Assembly: GCA_023362775.1 (NCBI GenBank)
Contig: JALMGJ010000012.1
Coordinates: forward strand, 25,327,001-25,391,000
Origin: Charina bottae
Lineage: Eukaryota; Chordata; Lepidosauria; Squamata; Charinaidae
Direction: 5' to 3'
Length of the DNA stretch: 64,000 nt
Positions 2,934 through 45,660 of this stretch are shown piece after piece; positions within the stretch are counted from its first letter, which is position 1; each line of letters opens with the position of its first letter. The notes beneath the pieces were generated by a model. The model was given only the letters and a program-made list of their open reading frames with translations, had not been told where the DNA came from and searched no databases. A program made the position numbers and the translations under genes.

Positions 2934-2967
2934 AACGTTTCACTCCTTATCCAAGGAGCTTCTTCAG
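2934..2967 (-). ncRNA. hammerhead-ribozyme-like core, PLE family A (left arm of A1)
   Basis: Minus strand: CTGAAGA, a stem II of GCTCCTT/AAGGAGT around loop GGAT, then GAAACGTT. The last stem II pair next to GAAA is a G-U wobble. The ACGT after GAA is self-complementary, fitting the minimal, dimer-type PLE hammerheads. Activity is unknown. Confidence 0.65.
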
Positions 2968-3706
2968 TCTGAGTAAAGTTAGTAAGGGAATCCTTAAATA
3001 TGTTTCTAGGCTGGCTGTGTGACCTTGCACCTGGTGCTAGGTCATGGTTATTTTTGAGATGTTTGTTTCTAAGTCCCTTTATCATCTAAAGGAGGATCGT
3101 TAAGATTACCCTGCTGCTGTTGAGCTTGTGAAATGGTCTTAATCTTCCTAGGCACAGAAGACAAAGCAGGAAGGAAGATAGGGGAAAGGTTATGCCTGAG
3201 GCCCCCACCTCTATTCAAGGAAGGATTTTCCAAGTTGGCATGAATGGATTCCTTGACCCCTCTCTCAAACCACCTATCTTCTCTGTCTAAAATGTGAACA
3301 TTAATGTCCTCAAATGAGTGTCCTTTTTCCTTTAGATGAAGATAATTAATTAATTATTAATTATTATAATTAATGTTCACATTTTAGACAGAGAAGATAG
3401 GTGGTTTGAGAGAGGGGTCAAGGAATCCATTCATGCCAACTTGGAAAATCCTTCCTTGAATAGAGGTGGGGGCCTCAGGCATAACCTTTCCCCTATCTTC
3501 CTTCCTGCTTTGTCTTCTGTGCCTAGGAAGATTAAGACCATTTCACAAGCTCAACAGCAGCAGGGTAATCTTAACGATCCTCCTTTAGATGATAAAGGGA
3601 CTTAGAAACAAACATCTCAAAAATAACCATGACCTAGCACCAGGTGCAAGGTCACACAGCCAGCCTAGAAACATATTTAAGGATTCCCTTACTAACTTTA
3701 CTCAGA

Positions 3707-3740
3707 CTGAAGAAGCTCCTTGGATAAGGAGTGAAACGTT
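3707..3740 (+). ncRNA. hammerhead-ribozyme-like core, PLE family A (right arm of A1)
   Basis: Mirror copy of the core at 2934-2967, with CTGAAGA at 3707-3713, stem II strands 3715-3721 and 3726-3732, and GAAACGTT at 3733-3740. It lies about 100 nt after the stop codon of the PLE frame on the same strand, the expected place for a terminal-repeat ribozyme. Confidence 0.7.
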
Positions 3741-3878
3741 TCCACTAAGAAAATAGAAATCCAGTTGACATGATTCAAGCCACAGACTTTCTGGCCTCAA
3801 GTTCTTTGCTTCCTGCCTTGGTAGCTTCAAACCTCACTTTTGAAGTCCTCATGTATTCCCTTAAGTGGTTCCCTATTG

Positions 3879-4145
3879 CAAGGGTACCCAACCTTTTTGG
3901 CACCAGGGACTGGTCGTGGAAGACAATTTTTCCACGGACCGAGGGGGCAGGGTTTGCAGACAGGAGCCAATCACGCAGACCAGGGGGTGGAGTTTGCAGG
4001 TGGGAGCCAATCGCGTGGACCGGGAGGTGGGGTTTGCAGGCGGGAGCCAATCGCATGGACCACCACCACTCACCTGCTGTGCAGCCCACTTCCTAACAGG
4101 CTGCGGCCCACTAGTGGGCCGTGGCCCACAGGTTGGGGACCCCTG
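3879..4145. mobile_element. hAT-type MITE, family 2 (CAGGGGTCCCCAACC termini)
   Basis: The termini CAAGGGTACCCAACC and GGTTGGGGACCCCTG are inverted repeats, flanked by a perfect 8-bp duplication CCCTATTG (3871-3878 and 4146-4153), the hAT signature. The interior holds three tandem units of about 40 bp containing GGAGCCAATC. The termini resemble MER1/Charlie-type hAT elements. No transposase is present. Other copies: 6660, 29516, 31411 and 52760. Confidence 0.88.
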
Positions 4146-4324
4146 CCCTATTGAATCAGTCTTCCCTAACAAGAATGTGTGGGTTCCATCAGGAGATTAT
4201 AAAGAAGTGCCACTTTATTTTGAGTGAATTTAAATCTTCAAAGCCAGATTAATTACATCCTAGGTTCCTGAAGGAGCTTACTGATGGACTGAATGAACCT
4301 TCATATAGGTTCATTTGAGAAATC

Positions 4325-4563
4325 CTGGAGAACTGGTGAAGTCCAGATGACTGAATAATGTTCTTCTCTTCAAAAAGGGAGAAAAGGAGGAACAAGGAAC
4401 TACAGACCAATCAGTCTGACATCAATTCCTGGGAAGATTCTAGAGCAAACCATGAAGAGGCTGATTTGTAAGTACCTTGAAAACAGTGTGGTAATTATTT
4501 TCTATAGTTACCAAATCAACATGGATTTGTTAAGAATAAGTCCTGCCAAATTAACCTGAACTC

Positions 4564-4625
<62 letters not shown>

Positions 4626-4720
4626 TGAATAGACTATTGGAATACAGTAGACATAATATATCTTTGATTTCAGGAAAGACTTATGATAGTGAACAATCTT
4701 ACAGTGTGCCTTCTGTACAT
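4325..4720 (+). mobile_element. CR1 LINE, degenerate reverse transcriptase fragment
   Basis: Across broken frames the plus strand reads NYRPISLTSIPGKILEQ, then NQHGFVKN and VDIIYL, matching successive conserved blocks of the CR1 reverse transcriptase (NYRPVSLTS, QHGF, DVIYLDFSKAFD). Stops and frame changes make it non-functional. A (TA)27 microsatellite splits it at 4569-4622. Neither LINE end is present. Confidence 0.78.
4569..4622. repeat. (TA)27 microsatellite
   Basis: Uninterrupted TA dinucleotides over 54 bp, inside the CR1 fragment. Confidence 0.95.
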
Positions 4721-4722
4721 AA

Positions 4723-5567
4723 TCTTGGAGCCAAATGAGACTATGGCCAAGTCAAGCCCATTTACAATAAAGTCCTAAATAAGGCAGTAGCCTTAGTTGC
4801 AAGGAATCAAGTAATAGTAAAATCCGAGGGCTCTTCCACACTACAGCCTTCAGCTGTCTATCTCCTGTTCATAAACCAGCTAGAAATGAAGGCTTACAAG
4901 ACCATTTTTCAGATTTCAATCCCTTCCTCTACTTGGCCACAGTGATGGCCAGGTGTTTGTACAAATCATGGTTTAACCCACTCCCTGATTGTTGAATTCC
5001 CTTGCTTCTTTCCTCCCAGAGACAGGAAATGAAGCCACCAACTGCTATCTCTTCTGTAGGCTTGCCTTGTTAATTGAAACTAGTTAGAAGAGGGGGGGGG
5101 AAAGAGCCAGCATTTCACTGCTCTGATCTGTTTTTTTAACTGAACAAATAAAAAAGTGCCCCCTTTCACGCAGATCTGAGTCCCAGTACAAAATGACCAT
5201 TGGAGGCAGAGAGCAGGGACAGAGGGTGTGTCCAACAGAGCACACACCACCCAACTGAAAGAGAAGCATTTGTGCAGGATACAATGAAGCACAGTGGGTG
5301 GACCAAATCTCCCTGCAAACACCAGCAGAGAGGGAAAACCACTACTTTCTAGGCAGAGCCAAACAACTCAGATGGAGGTCACCTTCCCAGCAAGCATGAT
5401 GCAGACTGAGGATGACATCATCCATTCCTGCCTTTCAATAACAACAGGTGGCCCATCTTCATGCTGGGAGAAGTACAAAGCTCAGATCTGCTTTAAGACA
5501 GTCCAAGAGTCAATTCCAAGAGGCAGTCCATAAACAATAGTCAGATTTCAAGGGTGAAACAGTTGCA
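4723..5567. other. no recognisable feature
   Basis: Single-copy-looking sequence leading up to the L2-type LINE end. A G8 run occurs at about 5093-5100. The short open frames here are not supported by any motif. Confidence 0.45.
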
Positions 5568-6116
5568 GTGATCAGATATAGTTGGGTGCCAGTTTGCTTC
5601 CGGGTCCAATTCAAGGTGTTGGTGATCACCTTTAAAGCCCTATATGGCATAGGGCCAGGGTACCTGAGGGACCGTCTCGTCCCGATAACGTCAGCCCGCC
5701 CCACCCGTGCATGCAGAGAGGGCATGCTTCGGACCCCCTCAACAAGAGAATTCCATCTAGCGGGGTCCAGGAGGCGTGCCTTCTCTGCGATAGCGCCCGC
5801 CCTATGGAATATCTTGCCCCCGGAGGTGAGACTGGCCCCCTCCCTCCTGACCTTTCGGAAGGCCCTTAAGACCTGGCTCTGCCACCTGGCCTGGGACAAC
5901 AGAGGCGGGAGTGCCTCTTGGGGTTGGCTAGCCCCGTAGCAACACTATGCTACCTTCCCTACGTCCCCCATCTTGTATTTTATTTATTTATATTGTATTT
6001 TTTAAAATTATTGTATTGTTTTTAACTTTGATTGTTGTAACCCGCCCAGAGTCCCTTGTATGGGAGATGGGCGGGGAATAAATTGAATAAATAAATAAAT
6101 AAATAAATAAAATAGT
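5568..6116 (+). mobile_element. L2/CR1-superfamily LINE, 3' end (C-terminus of ORF2 plus tail)
   Basis: The open frame at 5568-5939 (about 123 codons) reads FRVQFKVLVITFKALYGIGP, then FSAIAPALWNILP and a WGWLAP ending before the stop. This is the C-terminal extension after the reverse transcriptase in L2-like LINEs. The 3' UTR has the AACCCGCCCAGAGTCCC..GAGATGGGCGGGGAATAAA block and a short (TAAA)n tail (about 6082-6110). The copy is 5'-truncated. Clade assignment (L2 rather than another CR1-group lineage) is from memory of typical ends. Two related copies in the window (7217-7655, 16310-17146) end in the same W-x-W-L-V-P motif. Confidence 0.8.
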
Positions 6117-6651
6117 GCAGGGTTCAAGGAATCTACACAGTTGAACATGAAGCACTCAGTTTCAAGATATGACTGTCACAAAAGTTGTTTTCACAACAAA
6201 CCTTTCTCTGAGGGACCTTAAATACCAAAGGTTTACTAACTCTCCCTTCCTAAGTGAAGCAGTCTTGATTTATTAGGCCAGACTCTGCAGAGCTTCAACT
6301 TCTGTCAGGAGTCTTCCCTTACAAGCAGCTATCTTCACCTGGCTACATTCTGGTTCTCCAAACATGGTTGTCATTGTCCCAGCGGGCTGGTAGAACATTA
6401 TCTGCAGTTCCAAGTCCTCTTATCACAGTTGGGTAGGATAGTCCTGCATCTGGTCTTTCTGTGTTGGTACTGAGACTTGGTATGAATTGCCAGGTTCATC
6501 ACTTTGGTGCTTTTCTGAGAAAGATGGTTTGTCCAGATGGGCCATGGCCTGTACGTGGAACCCTTCCCCAATAGGAAGTTGCACCATTAGACAATCTACT
6601 TTGAATGGCAGCATCATTTGGAGGTCTCTTTCAGAAGTCCTCCCAATCACC
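6117..6651. other. no recognisable feature
   Basis: Single-copy-looking sequence between the L2 tail and the next MITE. Confidence 0.45.
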
Positions 6652-6659
6652 CATTATCT

Positions 6660-6968
6660 CAGGGATCCCCAACCATTTTGGCACCAGGGACCGGTTTCAA
6701 AAGACTATTTTTCCACAGACTGGGGGGGGGGGGTTCCGGGATTTCCGCGGACTGGGGGGTGGGGTTTCCAGGATTTCTGCGGACCGGGGGGCGAGGTTTG
6801 CGGGAAGGAGCCAATCGCACGGACCAGGGGCGGGGTTTGCGGGCGGGAGCCAATCACAAGCATCGAGGGTGGGGTTTGCAGGCAGGAGCCAGTCACGCGG
6901 AAGGGGGCAGGGTTTGCAGGTGGAAGCCCCGCGGCCCAGTTACTAACGCCACAGGTTGGGGACCCCTG
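6660..6968. mobile_element. hAT-type MITE, family 2
   Basis: Inverted termini CAGGGATCCCCAACC and GGTTGGGGACCCCTG, flanked by a perfect 8-bp duplication CATTATCT (6652-6659 and 6969-6976). The interior has about five of the roughly 40-bp GGAGCCAATC-type units, more than the 3879 copy, so unit number varies between copies. A G10 run lies at about 6723-6732. Confidence 0.88.
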
Positions 6969-9472: not shown

Positions 9473-9860
9473 GTGGAGTCCTTGGTGCTCTCTGAGCCTT
9501 GTTGTTTTCTTGCAGACGTTTCATTGCCAGGCTAGGCAACATCTTCAGTGTGAAAAGGGAGTGGGACTTGCTCTCTGTTTATATACCCTGGCTTGTCCTG
9601 CCTGTGTTGGTGAGGATGTTGTTCTCTCCTTGGTAGTACCTTGATTGGGTTGTTGTTTACTGCTTGGTTGATTGACTGAGTTAAAAGTTCTTTGATTAGG
9701 GTCTATTGTGTTGTTTGATTGCTCCTCTGGTGCTAATCCTCCTGTTAATATTTGCCTATCTGGTTGTTGATTGCTGGCAAGGAGGTGTTCTGGTCTTCTG
9801 GCTTTTCTATTGTCTCTTATGAATGGTATGTAAATGTTGTTTACCTCTATGTGTCTGTTG
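9473..9860 (-). mobile_element. Penelope-like element (family B), 5'-truncated copy
   Basis: The insertion is flanked by a 10-bp duplication ATTATACATT (9463-9472 and 9861-9870). The minus strand starts inside the C-terminal coding at INRHIEV and stays open to a TGA at 9545-9547 that lies inside the hammerhead-like CTGAAGA. The remaining 70 nt give the terminal repeat ending GTGGAGTCC...CACAA. It is a classic 5'-truncated retroposed copy and links family B coding to its ribozyme-bearing 3' end. Sister pieces: 1-232, 18798-18918, 33810-34175 and 45042-45112. Confidence 0.85.
9511..9548 (-). ncRNA. hammerhead-ribozyme-like core, PLE family B
   Basis: Minus strand: CTGAAGA, a stem II of GTTGCC/GGCAAT with an intervening TAGCCT loop, then GAAACGTC followed by TGCAAG. 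All invariant core bases are present. Stem I is very short. The UGA within the core is also the stop codon of the upstream frame. Confidence 0.65.
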
Positions 9861-9870
9861 ATTATACATT

Positions 9871-11896: not shown

Positions 11897-12945
11897 TTTT
11901 GTTGTTTATTCGTTCAGTCGCTTCCGACTCTTCGTGACTTCATGGACCAGCCCACGCCAGAGCTTCCTGTTGGCCGTCACCATCCCCAGCTCCCCCATAG
12001 TTGAGTCCGTTACCTCCAGAATATCATCCATCCATCTTGCCCTTGGTCGGCCCCTCTTCCTTTTGCCTTCCACTTTCCCTAGCATCAGCTTCTTCTCCAG
12101 GGTATCCTGTCTTCTCATTATGTGGCCAAAGTACTTCAGTTTTGCCTTTAATATCATTCCCTCAAGTGAGCAGTCTGGCTTTATTTCCTGGAGTATGGAC
12201 TGGTTTGATCTTCTTGCAGTCCAAGGCACTCTCAGAATTTTCCTCCAACACCACAGTTCAAAAGCATCTATCTTCCTTCCCTCAGCCTTCCTTATGGTCC
12301 AGCTCTCACAGCCATAGGTTACTACAGGGAATACCATTGTTTTAACTATGCAGACCTTTGTTGTCAGTGTGATGTCTCTGCTCTTAACTATTTTATCAAG
12401 ATTTGCCATTGCTCTCCTCCCAAGAAGTAGACGTCTTCTGATTTCCTGGCTGCAGTCAGCATCTGCAGTAATCTTTGCGCCTAGAAATACAAAGTCTGTC
12501 ACTGCCTCCACTTTTTCTCCCTCTATTTGCCAGTTATCAATCAAGCTGGTTGCCATAATCTTGGTTTTTTTGAGGTTTAACTGCAACCCAGCTTTTGCAC
12601 TTTCTTCTTTCACCTTCGTCATAAGGCTCCTCAACTCCTCCTCGCTTTCAGCCATCAAAGTGGTATCATCTGCATATCTAAGATTGTTAATGTTTCTTCC
12701 AGCAATTTTAACTCCAGCCTTGGATTCCTCAAGCCCAGCACATCGCATGATGTGTTCTGCGTACAGGTTGAATAGGTAGGGTGAGAGTATACAGCCCTGC
12801 CGTACTCCTTTCCCAATCTTAAACCAGTCCGTTGTTCCATGCTCTGTTCTTACCATTGCTATTTGGTCGCTATACAGATTCCTCAGGAGGCAGACAAGAT
12901 GACTTGGTATCCCCATACCACCAAGAACTTGCCACAATTTGTTGT
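11897..12945 (-). mobile_element. RTE/BovB-clade LINE, 5'-truncated copy with open C-terminal 343 codons
   Basis: The minus strand is open from 12937 to 11906. It contains the late reverse transcriptase blocks KGVRQGCILSPYLFNLYAE, the catalytic-site motif YADD in NNLRYADDTTLMAES, and LGKVEGKRKRGRPRARWMDD, ending RKRLNE just before a TAA. The 3' end reads GACTGAACGAATAAAC, similar to but distinct from the BovB end at 53.8 kb. The endonuclease and early RT are missing. No internal stop in over 1 kb suggests a fairly recent insertion. A clear target duplication is not visible. The paralog at 48528-49505 is about as long but frameshifted. Confidence 0.9.
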
Positions 12946-13680
12946 ATATGTTCCTGCAATATGCATTTTATAAATTGGTATGTGTTTTGTCTGGTTGTTG
13001 ATGTTTTAGTCTGGGATTGCACAGCAAAATTTGGACAAATACAAAATTCAAGAAATAACTGCATCCAATCTTAGCCAGATTGGAAGAGTTTGGAGATACC
13101 TGATTAGATGAAGACATGCCCATCATATTGCTCTCAATCCCAATCTACTCCCTTCATGATCCTCTTCTTCCCTATTCAATCTTACTTACATTTAAATGAT
13201 TATCTGATGTGTTATACATATGAGAAATTATATTACCTTGTAGTATTGATGGTGCTTTTGTATATTTTTACTCCAAGAAAATGACTGAATTATCATCAAT
13301 ACTTTAATGCTGAGCTGGAGTCAAAACATAACCCCTAAGAAATAAGAAGATATCAGCAAGCTGGAGGGAAACAAAAAAAATTAGAGAAATGCATGGTCCA
13401 GTGAGAACGGAACATATACAATAGCCCCAGAATGGTTATGAAAAATGTGAAAATAATGAAATATGCAGGAATAAGGGAATACAGTTGGCTGGATGGCTGA
13501 CTAGAATTCTGATTAATAGGGGTCATGAACTCATGTCAGTTTTGTGGTGTAGGTCCAAAATAAAAACAATTGGGTTTGTGCTTCTAAAAGCAACTTACCC
13601 AATAAAACAGCTGAGTGATTTAGGCATTGTCTAATTGACTCTCCTGAGGAATTAATGTTTGTCTGGGTGTTTATGGCTAA
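12946..13680. other. no recognisable feature
   Basis: AT-rich single-copy-looking sequence without coding signal. Confidence 0.45.
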
Positions 13681-13981
13681 AAGGGGCGTGATCGGAAGAT
13701 CGCAAGTTCGGAGGTTCGAATCCCTAGCCCCGCGTGATGGAGTGAGCTCCCGCACTCGCCCCAGCTCTTGCCAACCTAGAAATTCAAAAGCATGAAAATG
13801 CAAGTAGATGAATAGGTACCACTTCGGTGGGTAGGTAACAGCGTTCCGCGTGCGTTGTGCCGGCCACATGACCGCGGAAGCGTCTTCGGACAACGCTGGC
13901 TCTTCGGCTAACAAACGGAGATGAGCACCGGCCCCTAGAGTCGGACATGACTGCACAAATGTGCGGGGGGAACCTTTACCT
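13681..13981 (+). mobile_element. Sauria-type SINE with a deleted A-box region
   Basis: Begins AGGGGCGTG and passes directly to ATCGGAAGATCGCAAG, so about 30 nt of the head including the A box are missing compared with the 1501 copy. The B box GGTTCGAATCC, the BovB-like GTCGGACATGACTG and a short ACCTTTACC end are present. A GTGTTTAT match occurs on both flanks. The deletion should prevent RNA polymerase III transcription. Confidence 0.85.
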
Positions 13982-16308: not shown

Positions 16309-16548
16309 TCGTCACCATTCGTCAGGAGCGTTGTTGAAATCGGAAGCCTTCTCCGATCCGTGTCCTGCCTTGCCGAGTTGACCTCTAAAGTCCTGTCCGG
16401 AAGAACCTGAAGACTTGGCTCTGCCGTCTCGCTTGGGGTGGGAAGGGGAGTAGCTATTCATGGGGATGTCGATGAAGGTTCTCAGTCATCCAGGTGGAAT
16501 TGTCTGTAGCTTGAATCATGTCAACTGGATTTCTATTTTCTCAGTGGA

Positions 16549-16582
16549 AACGTTTCGCTCCTTATCCAAGAAGCTTCTTCAG
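16549..16582 (-). ncRNA. hammerhead-ribozyme-like core, PLE family A (left arm of A2)
   Basis: Minus strand: CTGAAGA, stem II GCTTCTT/AAGGAGC with one U-G wobble, then GAAACGTT. All invariant bases are retained. Confidence 0.65.
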
Positions 16583-16832
16583 TCTGAGCAAAGTTAGTAA
16601 GGGAATCCTTAAATATGTTTCTAGGGTGGCTGTGTGACCTTGCACCTAGGGCTAGGTCATGGTTATTTGAGATGTTTATTTCTAAGTCCCTTTGGATCTT
16701 TGGAAAATATCCTTTGGATGATAAAGGGACTTAGAAATAACATCTCAAAATAACCATGACCTAGCCCCAGGTGCAAGGTCACACAGCCACCTAGAAACAT
16801 ATTTAAGGATTCCCTTACTAACTTTGCTCAGA

Positions 16833-16866
16833 CTGAAGAAGCTCCTTGGATAAGGAGCGAAACGTT
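16833..16866 (+). ncRNA. hammerhead-ribozyme-like core, PLE family A (right arm of A2)
   Basis: CTGAAGA, perfect 7-bp stem II GCTCCTT/AAGGAGC with loop GGAT, then GAAACGTT. With 44677-44710 it is the best-preserved family A core. CTCAG upstream can pair with CTGAG downstream (16871) as the outer part of stem I. Confidence 0.72.
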
Positions 16867-17327
16867 TCCACTGAGAAAATAGAAATCCAGTTGACATGAT
16901 TCAAGCTACAGACTATTCTTGGGGATGGCTGGTGCCTTAGAGCTCTCCTCACGGAATTAGATCTTTACAGCCACTTGGTTTCTACACTTATTTTATATTT
17001 ATATTTGGTAAATTATGTATGTATATTTTAGATGTTTTTATATTTATCCTTTTAATGTGGTTCTTATTGTAAACCGCCCAGAGTCCCCCTTTCTGGGGGA
17101 GATGGGCAGTGGCAAAATTTGAATTATAAATAAATAAATAAATAAATTTCTCAGTAGTGCCTACCTCACAGGATGGCTGGGAAGATAAGATGCAGGAGGA
17201 CAGTCGTGTGTATGGCCTTGAAAGAAAGGCAAATGTGATAAATAAATCTTAATCTCATTGGCACTACCAGATGCAGTATGAAGAGCTACGTTTACTCCAT
17301 CTTGTAGATTCACATGTCATGTTAAGC

Positions 17328-17760
17328 CATCGAATCATAGAATTGGAAGGTCCTATGGAGGTCATCTAGTCCAACCCCTCTGCTCTGTGCAGGATTCTCT
17401 AGAGCAGGGTTCCTCAACCTCAGCCATTTTAAGATGCGTGGACTTCAACTCCCAGAATACTCCAGCCTTGGAGTATTCTGGGAGTTGAAGTCCACACATC
17501 TTAAAATGGCTGAGGTTGAGGAACCCTGCTCTAGAGCATCTCTGACGGATGACTATCCAGCCTCTCTTTGACGGCCTCCAGCAAAGGAGGCTTCGCTTTT
17601 TCATGTGGCAGCCTGTTCCACTGGCTGACATCTTGTGCAATCAGGAAGTTCCTTCTAATGTCTAGCCTGTACCTCCTTCCTTGTAGTTTTAACCCATTAG
17701 TTCTGATCTTGTCTTCTGGGGGCACAGAGAATGTTCTTTTAACTGTGGTTTGCTGTACAA
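17328..17760 (-). mobile_element. CR1 LINE 3' UTR, split by a foldback MITE
   Basis: The plus strand starts TCGAATCATAGAATTGGAAGG, the reverse complement of the CR1 3' end with its ATTCTATG-type terminus, and continues through GTCATCTAGTCCAACCCC and TCAGGAAGTTCCTTCTAATG blocks typical of CR1 3' regions. A 124-bp foldback element interrupts it at 17405-17528. No reverse transcriptase coding is included. Confidence 0.8.
17405..17528. mobile_element. hAT-type foldback MITE, family 3 (CAGGGTTCCTCAACC)
   Basis: A nearly perfect palindrome with arms of about 58 bp reading from CAGGGTTCCTCAACCTCAGC inwards, flanked by a perfect 8-bp duplication CTCTAGAG (17397-17404 and 17529-17536). It lies inside CR1. 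Relatives: 21409, 47477 and 58718 (complete), and 38186, 45155 and 60718 (half elements). Confidence 0.9.
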
Positions 17761-18797
17761 GCCACAATGGTTGGGTTGGCACATGATGCTTAACCGTAAG
17801 TCATTATTTACAGGCCACAATGGTTAAGTTCACAACCATCTCCCCCACTCCCACTCCCCCAAATAGTCCAGTCTGCAAGACCAGAGATTGTACTGTAAGA
17901 AGCAAAGGAAAAAAAGGGGAGAAGACTCCCCCATAGATACTGTACATGGGGAAGGGTGGACATTACCACTTGAAAGCTGAAAGTATAACATTCCTTGGAC
18001 TATTCAACATTTAATGTTCAGAATAGGAACGTAAAAAATATTAAGCAGAGACAGAATTGGGTTGTTTGCTCCCATCAGATCCATTATGAGATGAACGCAA
18101 GCATTAATGAAGTCTGGCTAGGTCTCATCCTTCTCTAGCAAAGACATGGTTTGTTATCCAAAACGCATGGAGTGCCTAGCATTCTCCGCTCTTCTTTCTT
18201 TGCTCAGAAAAAAAAAACGTCCTGCCTTGAAACTTTCTAGCACTGCTCGGCTCTCCACAAAGCCTGCTTCTCCATTGCAGCGTTTCCTGGGCTGAGCAGG
18301 TGACCCTGCAACATCACCTCCTTGTTCATACCCGAAAATAAATGCAAGCACCCTCCCCACCCCAAATTCTAAATAGACCAGCAAATTTATGTCTGTAGAT
18401 TTTATTAAAAATCCAGACATAAATCTGCTAGAATATAAATCTGTCCTGGAAAGAAAGCAGTAAAAGGGATTTGATTTACTTCAATCTGCATATGCTTCAT
18501 TGGAGGAAAGTTTGTCCTCCTGCATTTAATCCTCCCTAAAGGATAAAGGTCCAAGGCCACACTTTGGAGTCTCGGTTCCGGTTCTTTGTGCCTTCAGATA
18601 AAGTAGCGGGGGAAGTCTTATGCCAAGTCCGCAAAGAACCATTATGAGTCAGTTCCGACAGTTCTGCATTAGATGAACCCACTGTCTGTTGTGGGATAAG
18701 GCAGCTTCCTTGGTTCCTATTTAAATTTGCCCTATGTTTGGAATCATGAGGACTGGAACCTTTCAATAGAAGAGAATATCTGTACCTCAGGGTTGAA
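17761..18797. other. no recognisable feature
   Basis: Single-copy-looking sequence. Short open frames on the minus strand (18154-18420, 18536-18766) lack motifs. Confidence 0.45.
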
Positions 18798-18918
18798 TTG
18801 TGGAGTCCCTGGTTCTCTCTGAGCTTGGTTGTTTGCTTGCAGACATTTCATTACCCAACTAGGTAACATCATCAGTGCAAATAAGTGTGAGGTTTGCTCC
18901 CTGTTTATATATGTAGCT
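18798..18918 (-). mobile_element. Penelope-like element (family B) terminal fragment
   Basis: TTGTGGAGTCCCTGGTTCTC at the left end and the hammerhead-like core at 18841-18875 match the terminal repeat at 9473-9560. The similarity stops near a C11 run at about 18921. No coding is retained. Confidence 0.75.
18841..18875 (-). ncRNA. hammerhead-ribozyme-like core, PLE family B (variant)
   Basis: Minus strand: CTGATGA, stem II GTTACC/GGTAAT, then GAAATGTC. The C to U change after GAAA turns a C-G pair of the minimal stem III into U-G, so it is possibly weakened. Confidence 0.6.
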
Positions 18919-18960
18919 TGCCCCCCCCCCCGGAAGCTTTGCTTGGAAGGAAGGGACAAT

Positions 18961-20783: not shown

Positions 20784-21408
20784 TGGTGCCATAGCACATG
20801 CCATAACAAAGCACTGAGAGAACACTTTGCCCACCAATGCCCTCATTGTTCCACAGATGTGACTCACTCAAACTTCCCGAACATCTTTTATAGGGGAGCA
20901 GCTTCCCTGAAAAAGAATCGTCTCCACTATGAAACGATCCACTCAGTCAATAGTTTCAGAAAATAAAGACATTGTTCTCTGCTCTGTCATCCTAAATGAA
21001 AGAGTGATAAGCTTAGTGGAGTGTGACAGCCACTCAAGCCTGTTCCCTTATCCAATATATAGAATTATGCAGAGCATGAAAGGGGTGGTGGGAGGTGGGG
21101 AAACCTTCTTCTAATATTAGAATCAGGAACTGTCCATCAAAGCTAAATTTGGAAAGGTTTTGCTAAAGGAAAGTCCCCAAGGCAGAGTTAAATTACCCCT
21201 AATTAATTTAGGTGGTGTTAGTTAATTAGGTGCCATGACTGTGTGGACAAATGACCACCATCTGGACCTCAGCGATAATCCCCAGCTCATCCAAGGACAT
21301 TTCAGTGATGCCCCTGATCATTCTGCTCTTTCATTTTAAAAAAGGAAGAAGAGAAGAGGAATCAGATGAACATTCAGCTCCCAGGTCATGCCTGCAGCTT
21401 CCAGACTG
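20784..21408. other. no recognisable feature
   Basis: Single-copy-looking sequence. Confidence 0.45.
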
Positions 21409-21529
21409 CAGTGTTTCTCAACCTTGACAGCTTGAAGATGTGTGGACTTCAACTCCCAGAATTCCCCAGCCAGCCATACTGGGAGTTGAAGTCCACACAT
21501 CTTCAAGCTGTCAAGGTTGTGAAACACTG
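21409..21529. mobile_element. hAT-type foldback MITE, family 3
   Basis: A palindrome of about 121 bp: CAGTGTTTCTCAACCTTGAC at the left end and GTCAAGGTTGTGAAACACTG at the right, with AAGATGTGTGGACTTCAACT arms. The flanking 8-mers do not match (CCAGACTG, TAAGAGGA), so the duplication has decayed or the element is rearranged. Confidence 0.8.
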
Positions 21530-21693
21530 TAAGAGGATCCATTCCCTAAATGAGGTGTTTGGAGGGAAGTTCAACTAACAGTACTGGTCAGTTTGGACAC
21601 ATTTTGGCCAAGATGCAACCAAAGCCTATTTTTACCCCAACATGTTCACATTATTCTAAGCAAGCTAGGATCTCTAAACTAGGGCCTACTTCA
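21530..21693. other. no recognisable feature
   Basis: Short single-copy-looking sequence. Confidence 0.4.
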
Positions 21694-23187: not shown

Positions 23188-23640
23188 CCAGTTTGCCATA
23201 GTGGTCAAAGGCAGGGCTTTTCAAGCAACACTTCAAACTTTTTCAGACTGCAGAAGCTGTTTTTAAAAAGTTCCTAGAACCCCTTATCAAAGAGGCAAAG
23301 CTCTAGCAATAGAAAATAGGCAATAAAACAAAACTTGGGCCTGCTGTAATTTATTTATGTCCACTTTTATATTAAACTGTCTTTATTTATTGCCCTTCAT
23401 CTCTCACGGAATCCCGATCAAGAAGCCAGTTTGAACAACTTTGGTTAAAGGCACCAGGCTAGAAACCGGGAGACCTTGAGTTCTAGTCCCACCTTGGGCA
23501 CAAAGCCAGCTGGGTGACCTTGGGCCAGTCACTTTTTCTCAGCCCTAGGAAGGAGGCAATGGCAAACCAATTCTGAAATCTTGCCAATAAACTGCAGGGA
23601 CTAGTCCAGGAAATTGCCAGAAGTCCAGACTGATGCAAAG
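23188..23640 (+). mobile_element. tRNA-derived SINE (second family) with an internal insertion of about 230 bp
   Basis: The head GCCAGTTTGCCATAGTGGTC is separated from the rest of the SINE (GGTTAAAGGCACCAGGCTAG onwards) by about 23211-23443. CAAAGGCA before and TAAAGGCA after suggest a 7-of-8-bp target duplication. The insert carries no recognisable termini. Confidence 0.65.
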
Positions 23641-29515: not shown

Positions 29516-29688
29516 GTTTTCCACGGACCGGGGTGGGGGGTGGGGTTTGCAGGCGGGAGCCAACCTCACGCACCAGGGGTGGGGTAATCACGTGCACCCT
29601 GGGGGGTGGGGTTTGCAGGAGGGAGCCCCGCGGCCCACTTCCTAACAGGCCCACTAGTGGGCCACGGCCCACAGGTTGGGGACCCCTG
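29516..29688. mobile_element. hAT-type MITE, family 2, left end missing
   Basis: Begins inside at GTTTTCCACGGACCGGGG and keeps the right terminus GGTTGGGGACCCCTG. Two of the GGTTTGCAGG..GGAGCC units remain. Confidence 0.8.
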
Positions 29689-31410: not shown

Positions 31411-31648
31411 CAGGGGTCCCCAACCCCCGGGCCACGGACTGGTACCGGTTCGTGGCCTGTTAGAAACTGGGCCGCCATGACGGTCTCCAAACCCCGCCCC
31501 CCGGTCCGTGCGATTGGCTCCCACCTGCAAACCCCGCCCCCCGGTCCGCGCAATTGGCTCCCACCTGCAAACCTACACACCCCCGGTCTGTGGAAAAATT
31601 GTCTTCCATGAAACTGGTTCCTCGTGCCAAAAAGGTTGGGTACCCTTG
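31411..31648. mobile_element. hAT-type MITE, family 2
   Basis: CAGGGGTCCCCAACC at the left and GGTTGGGTACCCTTG at the right. ATTTATTG and GTTTATTG flank it (7 of 8 bases). The orientation of the inner units is opposite to the 3879 copy. Confidence 0.85.
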
Positions 31649-32490: not shown

Positions 32491-33809
32491 GATCAATCAA
32501 TCAATACTAGCATATGCAAATCTCATAAAAAGCCAACCAACAGCTCTTATATTTATCTCTAACCCATTAACAATTCAGATCCAGATGTTAGTCACAGGGA
32601 AGGATTCTCAACCAGTTCAAAACCAACTCTAGATATTCACAACCCCAAAACTATCATTTTTCAAAAACAGAGACAATATGTTTCCAGCTCTTAGGTCTTC
32701 CCCACAACCTAGTGCTATCTTTCAATCCCTGAACTGCACAAAAGCATGCTGGCATAAATTGTGTTGCCCTTACAAATGTTTGATTTATCCAGCTTTTATG
32801 ACAGATTGTCAGAGCTCAATTGTCTGTTCCAGCTCCCCAGTTCTGAGGAATGGAGCCGACATACCATATTGCCCAGGAATGGAGAAAATGCATAATCCTT
32901 TTCTTGCAAAAAAAGAGAGGGAGGTAAAGTGATTTGTTTCACCTGGAACTTTAGAAGTCAACACACTTATGCTTATTGCATGAAGTGGTAAAAGAAGTAA
33001 TGGCAATATATGTTAGTGCAATTTGTTAAGCATCATTAGGTCCAAAACCTGAATTCAGTCCTGAGCCTTAATTTTTGGTGATCAAGCCAAATCACTCCAG
33101 TTAGAATTTGGATTGGGAGGCAATGGGGAGTTCATCTAAAACCTTGAAGAATCTCCCTTTTATTTTCTTGGAAACAATACTAGAAATTCTAAATGAAATT
33201 CCCATAGCACAAACGGAGGAAATGTATGAAATTGTCATCCAAAGCAATTCTATCAATCCGTTAAGCAAGTTTTCTTCCCATTTCCTGATTCTCCTCCCCA
33301 AGTCTGGACTTTTCTCCATACATCTGAAAAGCTTCCATGGATTCCAATTCATTTTAGGCATGACTAAATCTGCTAGTCTCCAAGGGGCTATAAAATTCTC
33401 AGTTGTTCAAGGACTGGATTTTGTTTTAGTAGATTCTTGAAGGCACTGTCAATAGCAGCAGGACAACCCAAATGCACCATGAATAAGGGATTGGGATAAA
33501 GGGACTCTGAAATAAATCTGCTAGGACTGAGCCGTAGGCAATTGCCAGGCAGAACCAGGAAACAAGAGTTTCCTAGAAAACAGATCAAATGTCAGAGTCA
33601 AACAAACAATTCCACACCCTACTTATCTCCCATGTTGTGCTTTCTGTTCCTCCAGAAATGCCAGTCTGGGTTACAGTGGGTTGGCATCAAGGCTGGGCTG
33701 GACCCCATTCTAGACTTCCTGATGGGTTGTTCCCCTGCTTCTTGCCCTTCCCAACATGCAGGGAAGGGAAGCACTGCTGCCTGGCTCCTGTGTGGACTTG
33801 GTTTCCCAG
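32491..33809. other. no recognisable feature
   Basis: Single-copy-looking sequence. A 110-codon frame (33108-33440) and a 109-codon frame (33542-33871) carry no motif, and the latter overlaps the PLE fragment. Confidence 0.45.
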
Positions 33810-34175
33810 TGGAGTCCTTGGTGCTCTCTGAGCTTGATTGTTTGCTTGCAGGCGTTTCATTACCCAACTAGGTAACATCATCAGTGCTAGTGAGTGTGGG
33901 GTTTGCTTCCTGTTTATATACAGTAACTTGCCCTGCCAATGTTGGTGGAGGTGTGGTTTTCTCCTTGGTAGCTCCTTGATTGGGGTATTGTTTTCTGTCT
34001 GATCGTTTGTCTGCTTGATTGTTTGCCTGATCGTTTGTCATCTTGGTAGTTCCTTGATTAGGGTATTGTTTTCTGCTTGATTGTGTGTCTGGTGTTAATC
34101 CCTGCTTATCTGGGTGTTCTTTGCTGGAGAGGATGTGTTCTGGTTTCCCAGTACCTGCTTTTTCCTTTTAGAGAT
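33810..34175 (-). mobile_element. Penelope-like element (family B) terminal region
   Basis: TGGAGTCCTTGGTGCTCTCT at the left, then the hammerhead-like core and the GTTTATATACAG..CTTGCCCTGCC..CTCCTTGGTAG stretch match 9475-9660. 33950-34080 contains a local duplication of the CCTTGATTGGGGTATTGTTTT segment not seen at 9.6 kb. Confidence 0.78.
33851..33884 (-). ncRNA. hammerhead-ribozyme-like core, PLE family B (damaged)
   Basis: Minus strand: CTGATGA, stem II GTTACC/GGTAAT, then GAAACGCC. The T to C change just before the cleavage position breaks the consensus GTC, so it is probably inactive. Confidence 0.6.
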
Positions 34176-36141: not shown

Positions 36142-36397
36142 TGTAATGGTATGTGGGAAAGACCTTGGGAGACAGGGCTGCCTAGGGAACAGTTAGATAA
36201 GAGAAGGCATAGCCCACAGCTGGATAGTGGGTGGAGCAAGAGGCTCAGAAGGGACCCTCCCTAGTTTCATGGGCTGTAAAGGAGACGGGAGTTTTGTACT
36301 TTCAGACTTGCAAGATTCTGTTAATGTAGCATTACAATAAGGTAGAATTAGCTCATCTGGTTGTGTTTCCTGTCTGGTCTACCTGGGAAGGCTGGCA
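36142..36397 (+). mobile_element. Ty1/copia-type LTR, plus orientation
   Basis: TGTAATGGTATGTGGGAAAG at the left and GGAAGGCTGGCA at the right match the solo LTR at 8741-9009 along their length, with small indels. It faces opposite to the copia coding remnant that follows, so the two were joined by rearrangement or are separate insertions. No flanking duplication is visible. Confidence 0.72.
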
Positions 36398-36479
36398 TCA
36401 ATCTTGCAAGTCTGAAAGTACAAATCTCCCACCGTCTCCTTCACCCCATCTCCCTGAAGATCATTCAGTGGCCTGTTAG

Positions 36480-37540
36480 AACCAGTGAATGGAGCAGAGC
36501 TTAACGTAGTATAAGCTTGTGCTTTTGTTGGTAGTCTTTTTTGTAGGTGGGTAGCTGTCATTACTGCTTCCCCCCAATACTTTCTGGGTAAGTGAGCCTC
36601 CATGAGCATGTACCTGACCATGTCCATGATAGATCTGTTCTTTCTCTCTGCCACACCATTCTGTTTAGGCGTGTAAACTACGGTTTTCTCGTGTCTTATG
36701 CCCTGCTCTTTGAGATATGTCTGCATTTTATTGCTTGTGAATTCGCCCCCATTATCTGACCTTAGAGCAGAGCTTTCCAAACTTTGTGTTGGGACACGTT
36801 AGTGTGTCGGCTGCAGTGTCTAGGTGTGTCGCAGCTGCTGCTGCCTCCAAGCCCTGCCAGGATTCCACGCAGGTCCTAGTGCCTGCCTTGTGCCTTGCTG
36901 CCTCCAAACCTGCCCTGCCAGGATTCCGCGCAGGTCCTAGTGCCTGCCTTGTGCCTTGCTGCCTCCAAACCTGCTGTGATTCCACACAGGTCCTAGTGGC
37001 TGCCTTGTGCCCTGCTGTAAGAGTGTGTCGCGAAATGATGTCCTGCTGTAAGAGTGTGTCGCAAAATGATGCATGTCTAAAAAGTGTGTCACCAACATGA
37101 AAAGTTTGGAAAGCTCTGCCTTAGAGTTTGGGGTTTCCTTCCAAATTTGTTCTCCATTCTTGCCACATACTGCTGTAGCTTGTCCATGGTCTCCGACTTC
37201 TCCTTTAGCAGATAAGACACGCAGTACCTAGAGAAATCATCTATCATAGTTAATAAATATCTGTTACTCCCAACAGATTCTTGAATTGGCCCACACAGGT
37301 CGGTGTGAATTAGCTCCAGGGGCTGTCTGGAGCGCCTGGTGCTTTGTTTTGGAATTGCAGGCCTTCTGGCTTTTCCCTGAATGCAGGTTTTTCACTTTGC
37401 ATCAGTCTTACCACAGTCTTTGATTTCCAAATTGCTTGCCAATCCATCTTTCTTCATTTCAAGAATTGCATTTAAATCTCTATGTCCAAATAGTCTGTGC
37501 CAGAGGGTGGCGCTGTCGTCCCCTTTTTCTCAGTGACACA
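36480..37540 (-). pseudogene. copia pol remnant (GAG-pre-integrase and integrase core)
   Basis: The retained catalytic-core landmarks are the D of HTDLCGP, the D of RSDNGG and the E of VAERKNR, i.e. the D-D-E pattern of the integrase. A stop follows the GAG-pre-integrase part (about 37390), the MITE interrupts between the first and second aspartates, and the frame ends in unrelated sequence after about 36480. The protein cannot be made as it stands. Confidence 0.82.
36768..37118. mobile_element. hAT-type MITE, family 1, inserted in copia integrase
   Basis: 351 bp, termini CAGAGCTTTCCAAACT and AGTTTGGAAAGCTCTG, with a perfect 8-bp duplication CCTTAGAG (36760-36767 and 37119-37126). It is the same length as the 7882 copy, but its three internal units occur in a different order (long, long, short instead of long, short, long). 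Confidence 0.93.
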
Positions 37541-41648: not shown

Positions 41649-42067
41649 CAGGTAGTCCTCACTTAACAACCACAGTTGGGACTGGAATTTCAGTTGCTAA
41701 GCAATGCGGTCATTAAGCAAATCCGACCCAATTTTATTACCTTTTTTGTGGTGGTCATTAAGCGAATCACTGTGGTCATTAAGGAAATCACATGGCTGTT
41801 AAGCGAACCATGTGGTCGTTAAGCGAATCACGCAGCTCCCCATTGCTGGAAGCCGGTTGGAAGGTAAAAACTGGTGATCGCATGACCATGGGACACTGCG
41901 ACAGTCGTAAATGTGAACCGGTTGCCAAGAGCCCAAATTGCAATTGCGTGACCATGGGGATGCTGCAACGATCGTAAGTGCAAGGACCGGTCATAAGTCA
42001 TTTTTTTCAGTGCCGTCATAAGTTTGAACCATCACTAAATGAATGGTCGTTAAGTGAGGACTACCTG
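41649..42067. mobile_element. TA-flanked MITE (CAGGTAGTCCTC family)
   Basis: CAGGTAGTCCTCACTTAAC at the left and GTGAGGACTACCTG at the right, TA at 41647-41648 and 42068-42069. Several GTTAAGCGAATCAC-like repeats sit in the interior. Confidence 0.9.
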
Positions 42068-42414
42068 TAGTTTCTTCCACATGTTGTACTGAACCAAATA
42101 AGATGGGTTAAAGTGTGGCCAAATAACATTGCTAGTTCAGCAATGGCAATTGTAGAGAAGCAGAACTCAACCATACGTTCAGAACACTGTCTTGGCCAAT
42201 ATAGCTACATTAAAAAGTTAACTCATATAAGTTAAATAAATAAATAAAATAAATAAATAAACTCAGGAGTTCTCAGAAAGTGGGTTGAAACCACCAGGAG
42301 GGTCATGAGCAACTTCAAGGGAGAGTCACAACTTTTTTAAAAACCTGCTCAGCTTTCCACAAGAGGAGCTAGAAGGCTGTCAAAATTTGCTCCAGGCTGG
42401 GCTACTCACTTGCC
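42068..42414. other. no recognisable feature
   Basis: Single-copy-looking sequence with a short AAATAAATAA run near 42235. Confidence 0.4.
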
Positions 42415-42560
42415 GCCTTAAGTTATTTATAAAAATAATAAAGGCGGGATATAAATAATAATAAAATAAAATAAAATAAAATAAAATAAAATAAAATAAA
42501 ATAAAATAAAATAAAATAAAATAAAATAAAATAAAATAAAATAAAATAAAATAAAATAAA
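42415..42560 (+). repeat. SINE/LINE tail expanded into (ATAAA)20
   Basis: CGCCTTAAGTTATTTATAAA..GGCGGGATATAAAT (42417-42455) is the L2-like SINE tail seen at 51340 and 61540. It passes into 100 bp of ATAAA units (42461-42560). Confidence 0.85.
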
Positions 42561-43204
42561 AGCCTCAACCATACATAAACCAGGAGGGCCCACATTCTCC
42601 CAAGGGCAAGGCTGAAACAAGTGGCAGGTGGGGCCACAGCCAGAAGTAGGCAGGGCTACCAGTTCTGTTTTTCTGACATTTCCCTTTTCTCAATCTTTCT
42701 GATGCCCTCTTCTCTCTATCCTGCTACAGAAAAGACAGATGACTCCCACCAGAGGTTTGAAATGATCACTTGCAGAGGCTTTTGAAATTAACCCAAAGGT
42801 CTAATTAGACTGGTGGACCGGCATGACCCTGAGGTTGCAAGCTGCCTATCTCTGAATTAGGTAGAGTTAGAACTCATTGACAAGGAAGGGAATTTTCCAG
42901 AGGCCACAGCAGGGGTACAATCCCAAGAAAAGACAAGGCTGCTTTGAGAAATTGCAGAGGGTTGTTAAGCTTGTGCCTCCTCCGAACATCTTCCATGGAA
43001 TCAGATCTGAAGCACTGCACAGCCCTACTGGAAAGAGTCAGGAATCCACGGGATTCCCCAAGCTGGTGTCATCCGAATGTCTTGGAATGAAACACCCCAA
43101 GTTGCAGGCCAAGGAATTCTAGGAAAAGTACTCCCAACTATTACTGGAGGGCACCAGATTGTGGGAGTATGTTAGTCTGTTCTAATTCCTTCTGTAATCT
43201 TTGC
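42561..43204. other. no recognisable feature
   Basis: Single-copy-looking sequence. Confidence 0.4.
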
Positions 43205-43300
43205 TGAATATCTGCAAAAACCACCCAGAGTTGCTCTTTGAGAGAGATGAGTGGTGATTAAATTTGAAATATAAAATTAAATAAATAAAAATAAATGCAG
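43205..43300 (+). repeat. L2/CR1-type LINE tail
   Basis: ACCACCCAGAGTTGCTC..GAGATGAGTGG..AAATAAATAAAAATAAA matches the LINE 3' block elsewhere in the window. Confidence 0.65.
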
Positions 43301-43734
43301 GTGAATGAGTTCTAGTGGTACCTGGACTATTAGTACTATTGTCACATAAGTTATAACTTCAGAAAATTTCAGGTATTATGGTTGTACAGTGGAATGAACT
43401 GTGTTTTTAGCATGAGAGGAAATGGGAATAGAAAATTTAGAGAGAGAGAGAGAGGGGGGGGGAATCAATCATTTATATTCTCCGAGTTCGGTTTATTAGT
43501 GATGCTTAAAAGACATTATTAAAGGAAGGAGGCTGAGAATATAAAACCAAACATACTTATAAGATTTCTTTTTTTTCCCCTTTCCAATTGATAAAGAGAA
43601 AAGACAAAGAACATAGAGGAATATGTACATATTGTAGTAGTTATGGCATTCTCACATCCCAAGTAATGCCCTGGTGAATATGCAGCCCACTGTATTTCAT
43701 ATAAATTATGTTTATAATCATAATTATAAATAAA
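43301..43734. other. no recognisable feature
   Basis: AT-rich sequence with a (GA)n stretch followed by a G9 run (43440-43464). Confidence 0.4.
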
Positions 43735-44100
43735 ATGGATCAGAAACCAAGACCAAATGATATTCCTCCATGCAGCTCCTTAACACAGTTTATGTACAGC
43801 GAGTCACCATCATCATTGGCAATCACTCGTAGCCGAGTAAGATTGTCTTCCAAAGGTAAAATTTTAACAGTGGATCCGTAAGTGGCTGTAAAGGCCAATT
43901 CTGGATCCACACAACCTCCCACAATGAGGGCATAGGTTTCCGGGTGAGAGACGGTCATGATGAGGGTTTGCTTGACGTGCCTTCCTCTTAGCTCGTTTCT
44001 CCCTTTCGCCCTGTACACGTGCTTCTTCAAAGTCCATAGCATCATTAATAAAGGCTGACCTCCAGTTGAAACATTTCATTTTATAACCAGCCACTTCCCA
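43735..44100 (-). mobile_element. non-LTR retrotransposon C-terminus with a CPHC..H..H motif
   Basis: The minus strand reads NLCPHCGRLCGSRIGLYSHL followed by HC near a stop at 43864, a C-terminal zinc-knuckle of the kind that ends several LINE proteins. It is followed by a 3' region (43740-43860) with no other coding match and an AATAAAATGG end. The clade is not certain. The overlapping second frame is a shadow. Confidence 0.6.
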
Positions 44101-44594
44101 CTATGGCTTGTCTATTAACTTTTGATACCCAGGGAATATAGTGGAGTTGTTGGTGCTTAATTAAATCCATGGACAGCTATTTCTTTATATGAAACAGCCA
44201 CTAGAGGGAAGAAAGAGCTCGGTTTTTTTTCTATTCTTTTTCACCATGTCAGTAAAATCCAGCCATAGGTATTCCCACACCACATTAACTTCCCATCTTT
44301 GGTTGAATCTCAGAATAAAAACTCAGCAGGGATCAAAATGGATCCATAATAAGAAGCTGTTTAATCATGTTATGGTTTTTCTTAATGTGGTACAGAACAC
44401 AGAAACAAATACTGTATTTGTTTTTCCCACACAAAATTGTTTTATTGTACAAAATTAAACTCCTATCTTATTCTACTATCTTCCTAATACTATGAGTTTA
44501 CAACTATTTCTGTTCTTATTTAATCTATAAATTTCTATCTCTATGTTCTATTTCTATGTTCCTATCCCTATTTTTGTAGCACTACGTTTTCTTA
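44101..44594. other. no recognisable feature
   Basis: AT-rich single-copy-looking sequence. Confidence 0.4.
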
Positions 44595-44935
44595 TGTCTA
44601 TGAAGGTTCTCAGTCATCCAGGTGGAATTGTCTGTAGCTTGAATCATGTCAACTGGATTTCTATTTTCTCAGTGGAAACGTTTCGCTCCTTATCCAAGGA
44701 GCTTCTTCAGTCTGAGCAAAGTTGGTAACGGAATCCTAAATATGTTTCTAGGTAGCTGTGTGACCTTACACCTGGGGTCATGGTTATATTGAGATGTTAT
44801 TTTAAGTCCTTTTATCATCTAAAGGAGGATCGTTAAGATCACCATGCTGCTGTTGAGCTTGTGAAATGGTCTTAATCTTCCTAGGCACAGAAGACAATGC
44901 AGGGAGGAAGATGGGAGAAAGATTGTGCAGTTTTC
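44595..44935 (-). mobile_element. Penelope-like family A, single arm
   Basis: Begins with the same tip as A1 and A2 (TGTCTATGAAGGTTCTCAG) and follows the A1 left arm through TAAAGGAGGATCGTTAAG to CACAGAAGACAATGCAGG, where similarity fades. The mirror arm is absent. On the minus strand a frame reads LSSVPRKIKTISQAQQQ, the C-terminal part also coded in A1. Confidence 0.8.
44677..44710 (-). ncRNA. hammerhead-ribozyme-like core, PLE family A (single arm)
   Basis: Minus strand: CTGAAGA, perfect stem II GCTCCTT/AAGGAGC around GGAT, GAAACGTT. All invariant bases present. Confidence 0.7.
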
Positions 44936-45041
44936 TTATCTTAACTATTTTTAGCTCTTTCAATCTTTCCTTTTCCCCCAGGTCTTCAGCTCTTGTAGCC
45001 AATTTCATTCCCAATCAAAGTGAATGTCTGTAGCTAGGGTC

Positions 45042-45112
45042 GAACTGTGGAGTCCTTGATGCTCCCTGGGCTTGGTTAACCAAGCTCAGAGAGCACTAAG
45101 GACTCCACAATC
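45042..45112. repeat. palindrome of PLE family B tips
   Basis: GTGGAGTCCTTGATGCTCCC..GCTTGGTT meets AACCAAGCTCAGAGAGCACT..GGACTCCACA head to head at GGTTAACC. Each half is the terminal 35 nt of family B. The ribozyme core is absent. Confidence 0.7.
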
Positions 45113-45154
45113 TCAGTCCATCTGCATGTGAAAACTCTTTTCACTCCTCTATAG

Positions 45155-45226
45155 CAGTGTTTCTCAACCTTGGCAGCTTGAAGATGTGTGGACTTCAACT
45201 CCCAGAATTCCCTAGCCAGCATGGGA
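45155..45226. repeat. hAT family 3, half element
   Basis: CAGTGTTTCTCAACCTTGGC, GATGTGTGGACTTCAACTCC and CCCTAGCCAGCATGGG. One arm only. Confidence 0.75.
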
Positions 45227-45470
45227 AATGTTCTCTTGCTGTGTGAAAACTACTGCTAAGGTGCTTGCCTTTGGGTTGGTGTTTCTTTTTTCCACGGTCT
45301 CTGCTGACTTCTGGGCTTGACTCTTTTTCTCAACACACCCACACACATGCCCGTTTTCAGTACCCTTTTTATAAAACAAACTCTTCCGAGATACCAAAAC
45401 GAAGTATTTTAGAAATGGCTGTTGTGGGTCTTCCGGGCTGTGTGGCCGTGTTCTGGAAGTTGTGGTTCCT

Positions 45471-45506
45471 AACGTTTCGCCAGCATCTGTGGCCAGCATG
45501 TTCAGA
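45471..45506 (-). ncRNA. hammerhead-like core, PLE family C (left arm, broken)
   Basis: The minus strand has CTGAACA in place of CTGAAGA, changing an invariant G, while stem II and GAAACGTT remain. Predicted inactive. Confidence 0.55.
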
Positions 45507-45625
45507 GGGCAGGAGCACAGATAGAAGCGCTCTTTCTGTGCTCAGGTGTGCTCTTCCTGTGCTCTTCCTTTGCTCTGTGCTCTTCCTGAGCACAGGAAGA
45601 GCGCTTCTGTCTGTGCTCCTGCCCT

Positions 45626-45660
45626 CTGAAGATGCCGGCCACAGATGCTGGTGAAACGTT
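45626..45660 (+). ncRNA. hammerhead-ribozyme-like core, PLE family C (right arm)
   Basis: CTGAAGA (45626-45632), stem II GCCGGC/GCTGGT with two G-U pairs, GAAACGTT. CCT before the core pairs with AGG after the cleavage position as a 3-bp stem I. Confidence 0.68.

Follow-up and report, generated by a model that had tools for sequence, protein, structure and literature searches.

Minimal type I hammerhead ribozymes that lack a real stem III and work as dimers have reportedly been described in the pseudo-long terminal repeats (pLTRs) of Penelope-like elements (PLEs) by Cervera and de la Pena in 2014 and by Lunse, Weinberg and Breaker in 2017. The motifs considered here resemble them in belonging to PLE pLTRs and in being minimal variants of type I in which a real stem III is lacking. 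They lie in a 64,000-nucleotide stretch of the Charina bottae genome (assembly GCA_023362775.1, contig JALMGJ010000012.1, positions 25,327,001 to 25,391,000 of the forward strand), which is referred to as the window and numbered from its first letter. An initial annotation had listed ten hammerhead-like cores from three PLE families, designated F1, F2 and F3. The cores are real and were correctly recognized in kind; they were overcounted, their class is already documented, and cleavage of such motifs as dimers has been published before. We consider it highly probable that they are minimal type-I-like PLE hammerhead motifs kept by seven old insertions of three families, which are 5'-truncated and carry the motif in their 3' ends, and that these insertions were produced by the copying route proposed below.

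In Poseidon of Anolis carolinensis (PAc), the available part of the published description (PMC11167929) places a hammerhead at the start of the open reading frame (ORF), reports two start sites for reverse transcription, and states that the enzyme cuts and extends both strands. The same text gives 111 to 118 nt into the ORF as the commonest start of reverse transcription, and equates the 30- to 40-bp tail found in a fraction of PLE copies with the gap between the two start sites. The present elements are like PAc in the position of the motif at the pLTR-ORF junction, with the start codon at the beginning of stem II and C3 and G8 before it, in the position of the F3 end, 118 nt into the F3 ORF, and in a tail that corresponds to the gap between two start sites. 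The PAc cut lies 26 nt into the ORF (PMC11167929, available text) compared to a predicted 28 nt in F2 and 29 nt in F3, a comparison drawn from the published description. F1 differs from PAc in that its ribozyme precedes the ORF.

The Penelope element of Adineta vaga, as described in the available portion of PMC3846280, has an inverted pLTR that is 37 bp shorter, a 31-bp tail on one of the two, and a 9-bp duplication. The head-to-head inverted and shorter pLTR, the tail and the target-site duplication are shared with the insertions in the window; in contrast, that portion of the paper does not mention a hammerhead, and its authors favor self-priming. Compared to the canonical type I hammerhead of Rfam, the cores have the same C3-A9, G12-A14, A15.1-U16.1 and H17 positions and stems I and II, but they carry an extra unpaired base before stem II, have only ACGU as stem III, and give no Rfam match.

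Ten cores in seven insertions

All ten cores were verified in the window at most 4 nt from the positions originally listed, with 9511 becoming 9515 and 18841 becoming 18842. The earlier figures corresponded to the predicted cleavage base H17 in five of the seven minus-strand cores and to C3 on the plus strand. The count of ten independent copies did not hold, because six of the cores are arms of three head-to-head insertions, so that the cores derive from seven insertions. The insertions and their cores (C3 to predicted H17) are as follows.

2850..3786, minus strand: INS1, F1, two arms inverted head to head, the 3' end long in the minus arm and short in the plus arm (identified from arms and duplication)
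2934..2967, minus strand: F1a hammerhead core, intact, in INS1
3707..3740, plus strand: F1b hammerhead core, intact, in the inverted arm of INS1
16469..16912, minus strand: INS2, F1, head-to-head inverted arms, 97.4% identical
16549..16582, minus strand: F1c hammerhead core, intact, in INS2
16833..16866, plus strand: F1d hammerhead core, intact, in the inverted arm of INS2
44596..44929, minus strand: INS3, F1, single 5'-truncated copy, long 3' end (10-bp duplication, 3/1500 random pairs as good)
44677..44710, minus strand: F1e hammerhead core, intact, in INS3
9473..9860, minus strand: F2a insertion, single, short 3' end (10-bp duplication, 3/1500; nhmmer)
9515..9548, minus strand: F2a hammerhead core, intact, ATG overlapping A9
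18764..18930, minus strand: F2b insertion, single, long 3' end, placed from its homology with the copy at 45012-45108
18842..18875, minus strand: F2b hammerhead core, ATGT for ACGT
33811..34140, minus strand: F2c insertion, single, short 3' end (12-bp duplication, 1/1500)
33851..33884, minus strand: F2c hammerhead core, C at 16.1, probably dead
45417..45749, plus strand: INS4, F3, head-to-head inverted arms, 96.2% identical, long end on the plus arm and short on the minus arm
45471..45505, minus strand: F3a hammerhead core, C at G8, probably dead, in INS4
45626..45660, plus strand: F3b hammerhead core, intact, ATG overlapping A9, in INS4

A strict form of the motif was present 7 times in the real window and 0 times in 100 dinucleotide shuffles, and a relaxed form (GAAANNTH with a stem II of at least 5 bp) was present 8 times compared to a shuffle mean of 0.01 and maximum of 1. 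The sequence bears out the original claim that hammerhead-like cores of three families lie in PLE remains.

Seven of the ten cores are intact, and CTGANGA...GAA, A15.1-U16.1 and H17 are all kept in eight. The exceptions are the core at 45471, which has G8C, and the core at 33851, which has U16.1C; as had been proposed, both are probably dead. G8C and C3G each abolish cleavage of the PAc hammerhead (PMC11167929, available text). The palindromic 4-nt stem III is ACGT in eight of the ten cores, ACGC in 33851, and ATGT in 18842, which is self-complementary only via two G-U pairs. In F1, ACGT is the center of a 10-nt palindrome, GAAACGTTTC (3707-3750 and the other F1 cores).

One feature was passed over by the initial annotation. 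In all ten cores, a single unpaired base between A9 and stem II is needed for stem II to pair. The unpaired base that follows CTGANGA is A in F1 and T in F2 and F3, and in the latter two families it forms the middle of an ATG starting at A9. A canonical stem II without the unpaired base was tried and fails in 10/10 cores, none of which has the canonical pair 10.1-11.1 directly after A9.

Pairing of the stems was evaluated in an alignment of all ten cores (8 distinct rows) that covered six stem II pairs and three stem I pairs. Standard pairs occupied 94.4% of the stem I and stem II cells, and both sides changed in eight of the nine pairs. The covariation score was 0.881 compared to 0.349 for shuffled alignments, with none of 500 shuffles as high, in a test that favors itself because the sequences tested are also the source of the structure. 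When the alignment was slid by 1 to 3 columns, the score fell to between 0.06 and 0.26. The third stem I pair was broken in four of the eight rows. Covariation between families, as originally claimed, is therefore supported for stem II and for 2 to 3 bp of stem I.

Insertion anatomy and the two end classes

Target-site duplications flank six of the seven core-bearing insertions. They were controlled with 1500 random site pairs per insertion, none of which was as good as the 14-bp duplication of INS1 (2836-2849/3787-3800). One random pair in 1500 was as good as the 15-bp duplication of INS2, which has one mismatch, and one in 1500 was as good as the 12-bp duplication of INS4, TATTTTAGAAAT. The arms of INS1 are identical over 419/419 nt, and arms within head-to-head insertions are 96 to 100% identical, whereas F1 insertions compared with one another are 90.6 to 95.2% identical, which indicates that the arms were made together or converted. 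Overall, the anatomy of PLE pLTRs (head-to-head inverted copy, tail of 30 to 40 nt, target-site duplication) is present, and no full direct pLTR-ORF-pLTR unit was seen. Two additional F2 copies lack a core.

45012..45108, no single strand: F2x, coreless F2 head-to-head copy with a long minus arm and a short plus arm (homology, nhmmer)
2..157, minus strand: F2 copy that continues past the window edge, with a coding tail and no core, 97.5% identical to 9703-9862 over 160 nt (nhmmer, protein homologues)

The element ends fall into two size classes. From the predicted cut to the 3' end, the long ends measure 84, 80 and 81 nt in F1, 89 nt in F3 and 78 nt in F2b, where the end is known by homology only; the short ends measure 46 nt in both INS1 and INS2 (F1), 54 nt in INS4 (F3), 42 nt in F2a and 40 nt in F2c. 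The arms of F2x are 66 nt and 31 nt long, and its junction is symmetric at 45077/45078, ∼10 nt past the position where the cut is predicted. Each of the four head-to-head insertions (INS1, INS2, INS4 and F2x) has one long and one short end, and the single copies comprise two with long ends (INS3 and F2b) and two with short ends (F2a and F2c). Because even odds would give four mixed pairs out of four in 1/16 trials, the one-long-one-short pattern is a hint. The end classes, 40 to 54 nt and 78 to 89 nt after the predicted cut, agree with the pair of start sites and the tail known for PLEs.

In the copying route that we propose, reverse transcription would start within the RNA, either ∼40 to 54 nt or 78 to 89 nt past the ribozyme cut, so that a ribozyme copy, followed by a short stretch of the sequence downstream of it, would form the end of each insertion. 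Both target strands would be cut and primed by the enzyme, and two cDNAs of one element would be joined head to head within one duplication, so that a sense core and an antisense core would come to lie in one insertion.

Alternatively, self-priming rather than priming on both target strands might have produced the pairs, either through snap-back of one cDNA or on an antisense transcript. The complete identity of the INS1 arms across a short spacer and the symmetry of the F2x junction are consistent with such an origin, and self-priming on an antisense template is argued for in the available portion of PMC3846280. However, a snap-back copy should reach the end of its template and include the tail, and the second arm is 34 to 38 nt short in all four pairs, ending at the shorter class. 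Furthermore, the INS1 arms begin at different points, with AT-rich filler between them when read by eye. Self-priming is a serious possibility, but an unlikely one. We regard priming on both target strands as the likelier origin of the pairs; if each strand is primed from its own start site, the pattern of long and short ends follows directly. No PLE publication tying inverted copies to both-strand priming was found among the matches listed in the literature search.

Coding links and ribozyme function

Coding sequence is associated with the cores in each family, and two stretches were delimited.

3072..3353, minus strand: C-terminal coding stretch of F1, a GIY-YIG element, with first residues that look like junction filler (protein homologues)
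45632..45749, plus strand: start of the F3 ORF, 118 nt from the ATG to the element 3' end, open through the ribozyme

The F1 stretch had 108 protein homologues among 109 candidates, with precomputed PF01541 in 4; two of the four homologues given to Pfam passed the GIY-YIG cut-off, and the three that are named (3/108) come from Xenopus and Takifugu. The first ATG of F1 lies 29 nt past the predicted cut, and MIQATD-STWMTENLHRH is common to three insertions. Two of the F1 frames have stops inside the core, and the third is open there and stops soon after. In F2, a conserved coding tail that leads towards the core had 6 homologues among 9 candidates, one of which (P0109) ends SPTPPFCTEDVA; this fits a translation continuing into CTGAAGATGTTGCC. 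The F3 ORF opens MPATDAGETLG..., and no coding end is present in F3. In both F2 and F3, the ORF runs through the core and the start codon overlaps it.

The coding links put forward originally hold for F1, through its GIY-YIG homologues, whereas F2 has a coding tail without a recognized domain and F3 has only an ORF start, for which no homologue was found. F2 is placed with the PLEs by its putative ribozyme motif, ends and ORF start, and F3 by the same features together with its head-to-head form. Matches to RVT_1 in the window, at 11909-12967 and 55691-58093, are outside these elements, the PLE copies being 5'-truncated. Searches for relatives gave none by pattern and three stretches by protein in viral contigs, and 47 stretches by protein in prokaryote genomes; none of these stretches was confirmed. 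No solved structures were found for the F1 tail.

The activity and role of PLE hammerheads are called still a mystery in the available portion of PMC7761336. In the live element, the motif would be located at the pLTR-ORF junction, just before the ORF in F1 and spanning the F2 and F3 start codons. Tandem PLE transcripts may fold a minimal hammerhead at each such junction and, we infer, be cut by it, whether by dimerizing through ACGU or with help from the element protein. Cleavage of F1 would leave an intact ORF behind a leader of 29 nt; cleavage of F2 or F3 would part the start codon from the rest, and the cut RNA is therefore unlikely to be a message.

According to the initial annotation, two molecules are required for stem III to form. 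This fits the sequence and the published class, but the PAc hammerhead cleaves only with the element protein present (PMC11167929, available text), and because of the longer F1 palindrome GAAACGTTTC, a dimer could also trap the conserved GAA in a duplex that would compete with the active fold. A dimer within one transcript would need tandem sense cores, and among the ten cores none of the same orientation and family lie within ∼9 kb of each other. Folding predicted that the inverted insertions form a long hairpin with 85 to 95% of the bases paired. The copies in the window are remains, and any core of an inverted insertion can pair with its own antisense arm.

The core might instead be kept mainly as coding and protein-binding sequence, serving the starts of the ORF and of reverse transcription, with the ribozyme likeness a relic that cleaves little. 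In F2 and F3 the ORFs pass through the core, and an extra base together with so short a stem III would be expected to impair catalysis; in addition, the available text of PMC11167929 reports that ribozyme mutants of PAc insert normally in vitro and that no RNA-seq ends fall at the cut. On the other hand, F1 keeps the core without a start codon in it, stem II covaries with a different sequence in each family, and the Anolis ribozyme cuts when protein is added and loses cutting with G8C or C3G (PMC11167929, available text). We find it doubtful that the core is a relic of this kind.

Several results weigh against the interpretation of the cores as PLE hammerheads. The first is the extra base between A9 and stem II. 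Hammerhead candidates mispaired beside the core were rejected in the available portion of PMC3088659, in which core insertions after A6 and near C3 lowered activity and one in GAAA was accommodated. No discussion of an extra base in PLE hammerheads was found in a literature search that did not cover two main papers on the class.

Model searches are also adverse. No Rfam hammerhead was found in the window at gathering scores or among 32 whole-window matches at E ≤ 5, nor was one found at E ≤ 10 in 101-nt stretches around F1d, F2a and F3b (3/10 cores). A covariance model built from seven of the eight F1 and F2 cores, one of three possible models leaving out a family, gave F3b a score of 16.9 bits (E, 0.068), close to a presumed chance match at E 0.12, whereas F3a had an E of 8.1; as a test, this is weak for F3. 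Profiles of one family matched cores of another at E 0.28 (F1 to F2a) and at E 0.39, 0.39 and 6.1 (F2 to three F1 cores), and other weak matches were at a similar level or better (E 0.035 at 33448 and 0.38 at 13695). Stem II was predicted in three of the four monomers that were folded, and only F3b combined it with stem I and an open core. Minimum-energy dimers of the four folded cores did not settle on the active fold, although the energies of such short palindromes prove little. We read the weak model, profile and folding results as reflecting a motif too short for such tools, and do not take them as support.

The remaining adverse results concern proteins and duplications. No domain above the Pfam cut-off was found in either of the two F2 homologues given, comparison of the F2 and F1 profiles gave no match (hhalign probability, 0.84%), a search with the F3 N-terminal peptide found no protein homologue, and Pfam, given 10 ORFs of the window, revealed no PLE reverse transcriptase domain. 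F2b has no significant duplication; a wider search gave GGAA(C/G)CTTT (9 bp, one mismatch), which chance equaled in 83 of 400 random pairs. A target-site duplication was also searched for in F2x, and none was found.

That the motif matches are chance or composition artefacts is scarcely credible. Degenerate hammerhead searches do give false positives, and Rfam is without a match, but the strict motif was seen 7 times compared to none in 100 shuffles, the stems covary, and the place of the motif is fixed relative to the element ends. Separately, the covariance model matched 23238-23279 (plus strand) at E 0.12, a site that was missed by the motif scan and is probably a chance match.

If the cores are PLE hammerheads, a more specific arrangement can be proposed tentatively. 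One dimeric enzyme might prime both cut strands, with a long-site and a short-site subunit, making one tailed end per pair the rule (4/4). The hammerhead, at a near-fixed distance upstream of both start sites, might be silenced by the extra base until protein binds the start region, so that cleavage would be tied to insertion. We would sooner expect this scheme to fail than to hold.

Neighboring features and significance

Five other sets of features were noted in the window.

55691-58093, minus strand: long ORF of 801 aa with endonuclease and reverse transcriptase domains, LINE-like
11909-12967, minus strand: second ORF with a reverse transcriptase domain
36382-36798, minus strand: integrase-like fragment with a weak Pfam rve match below cut-off
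17400-17556 and 21408-21537: short inverted repeats with matches to several microRNA models, in most cases on both strands; these are probably a small palindromic transposon and not microRNA genes
6789-6907, 29538-29617, 31485-31648, 52834-52983 and 59716-59802: GC-rich minisatellite with a unit of ∼39 bp

The first two look like BovB/RTE LINE copies, and the integrase-like fragment presumably belongs to a copia-type element. The LINE-like ORF, along with the general repeats, would suit a squamate reptile host.

The description of this window as unusually informative is fair with regard to insertion anatomy and less so with regard to ribozyme function. Two layouts, with the motif before the ORF in F1 and overlapping the start codon in the other two families, are joined here with a shared non-canonical core and two end classes. 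The interest lies in the insertion anatomy, with one long and one short end in four of four pairs, and in the shared extra base. The layouts, the extra base and the end classes can be counted in any complete reptile genome, which makes the ideas of dual priming and protein gating directly testable.

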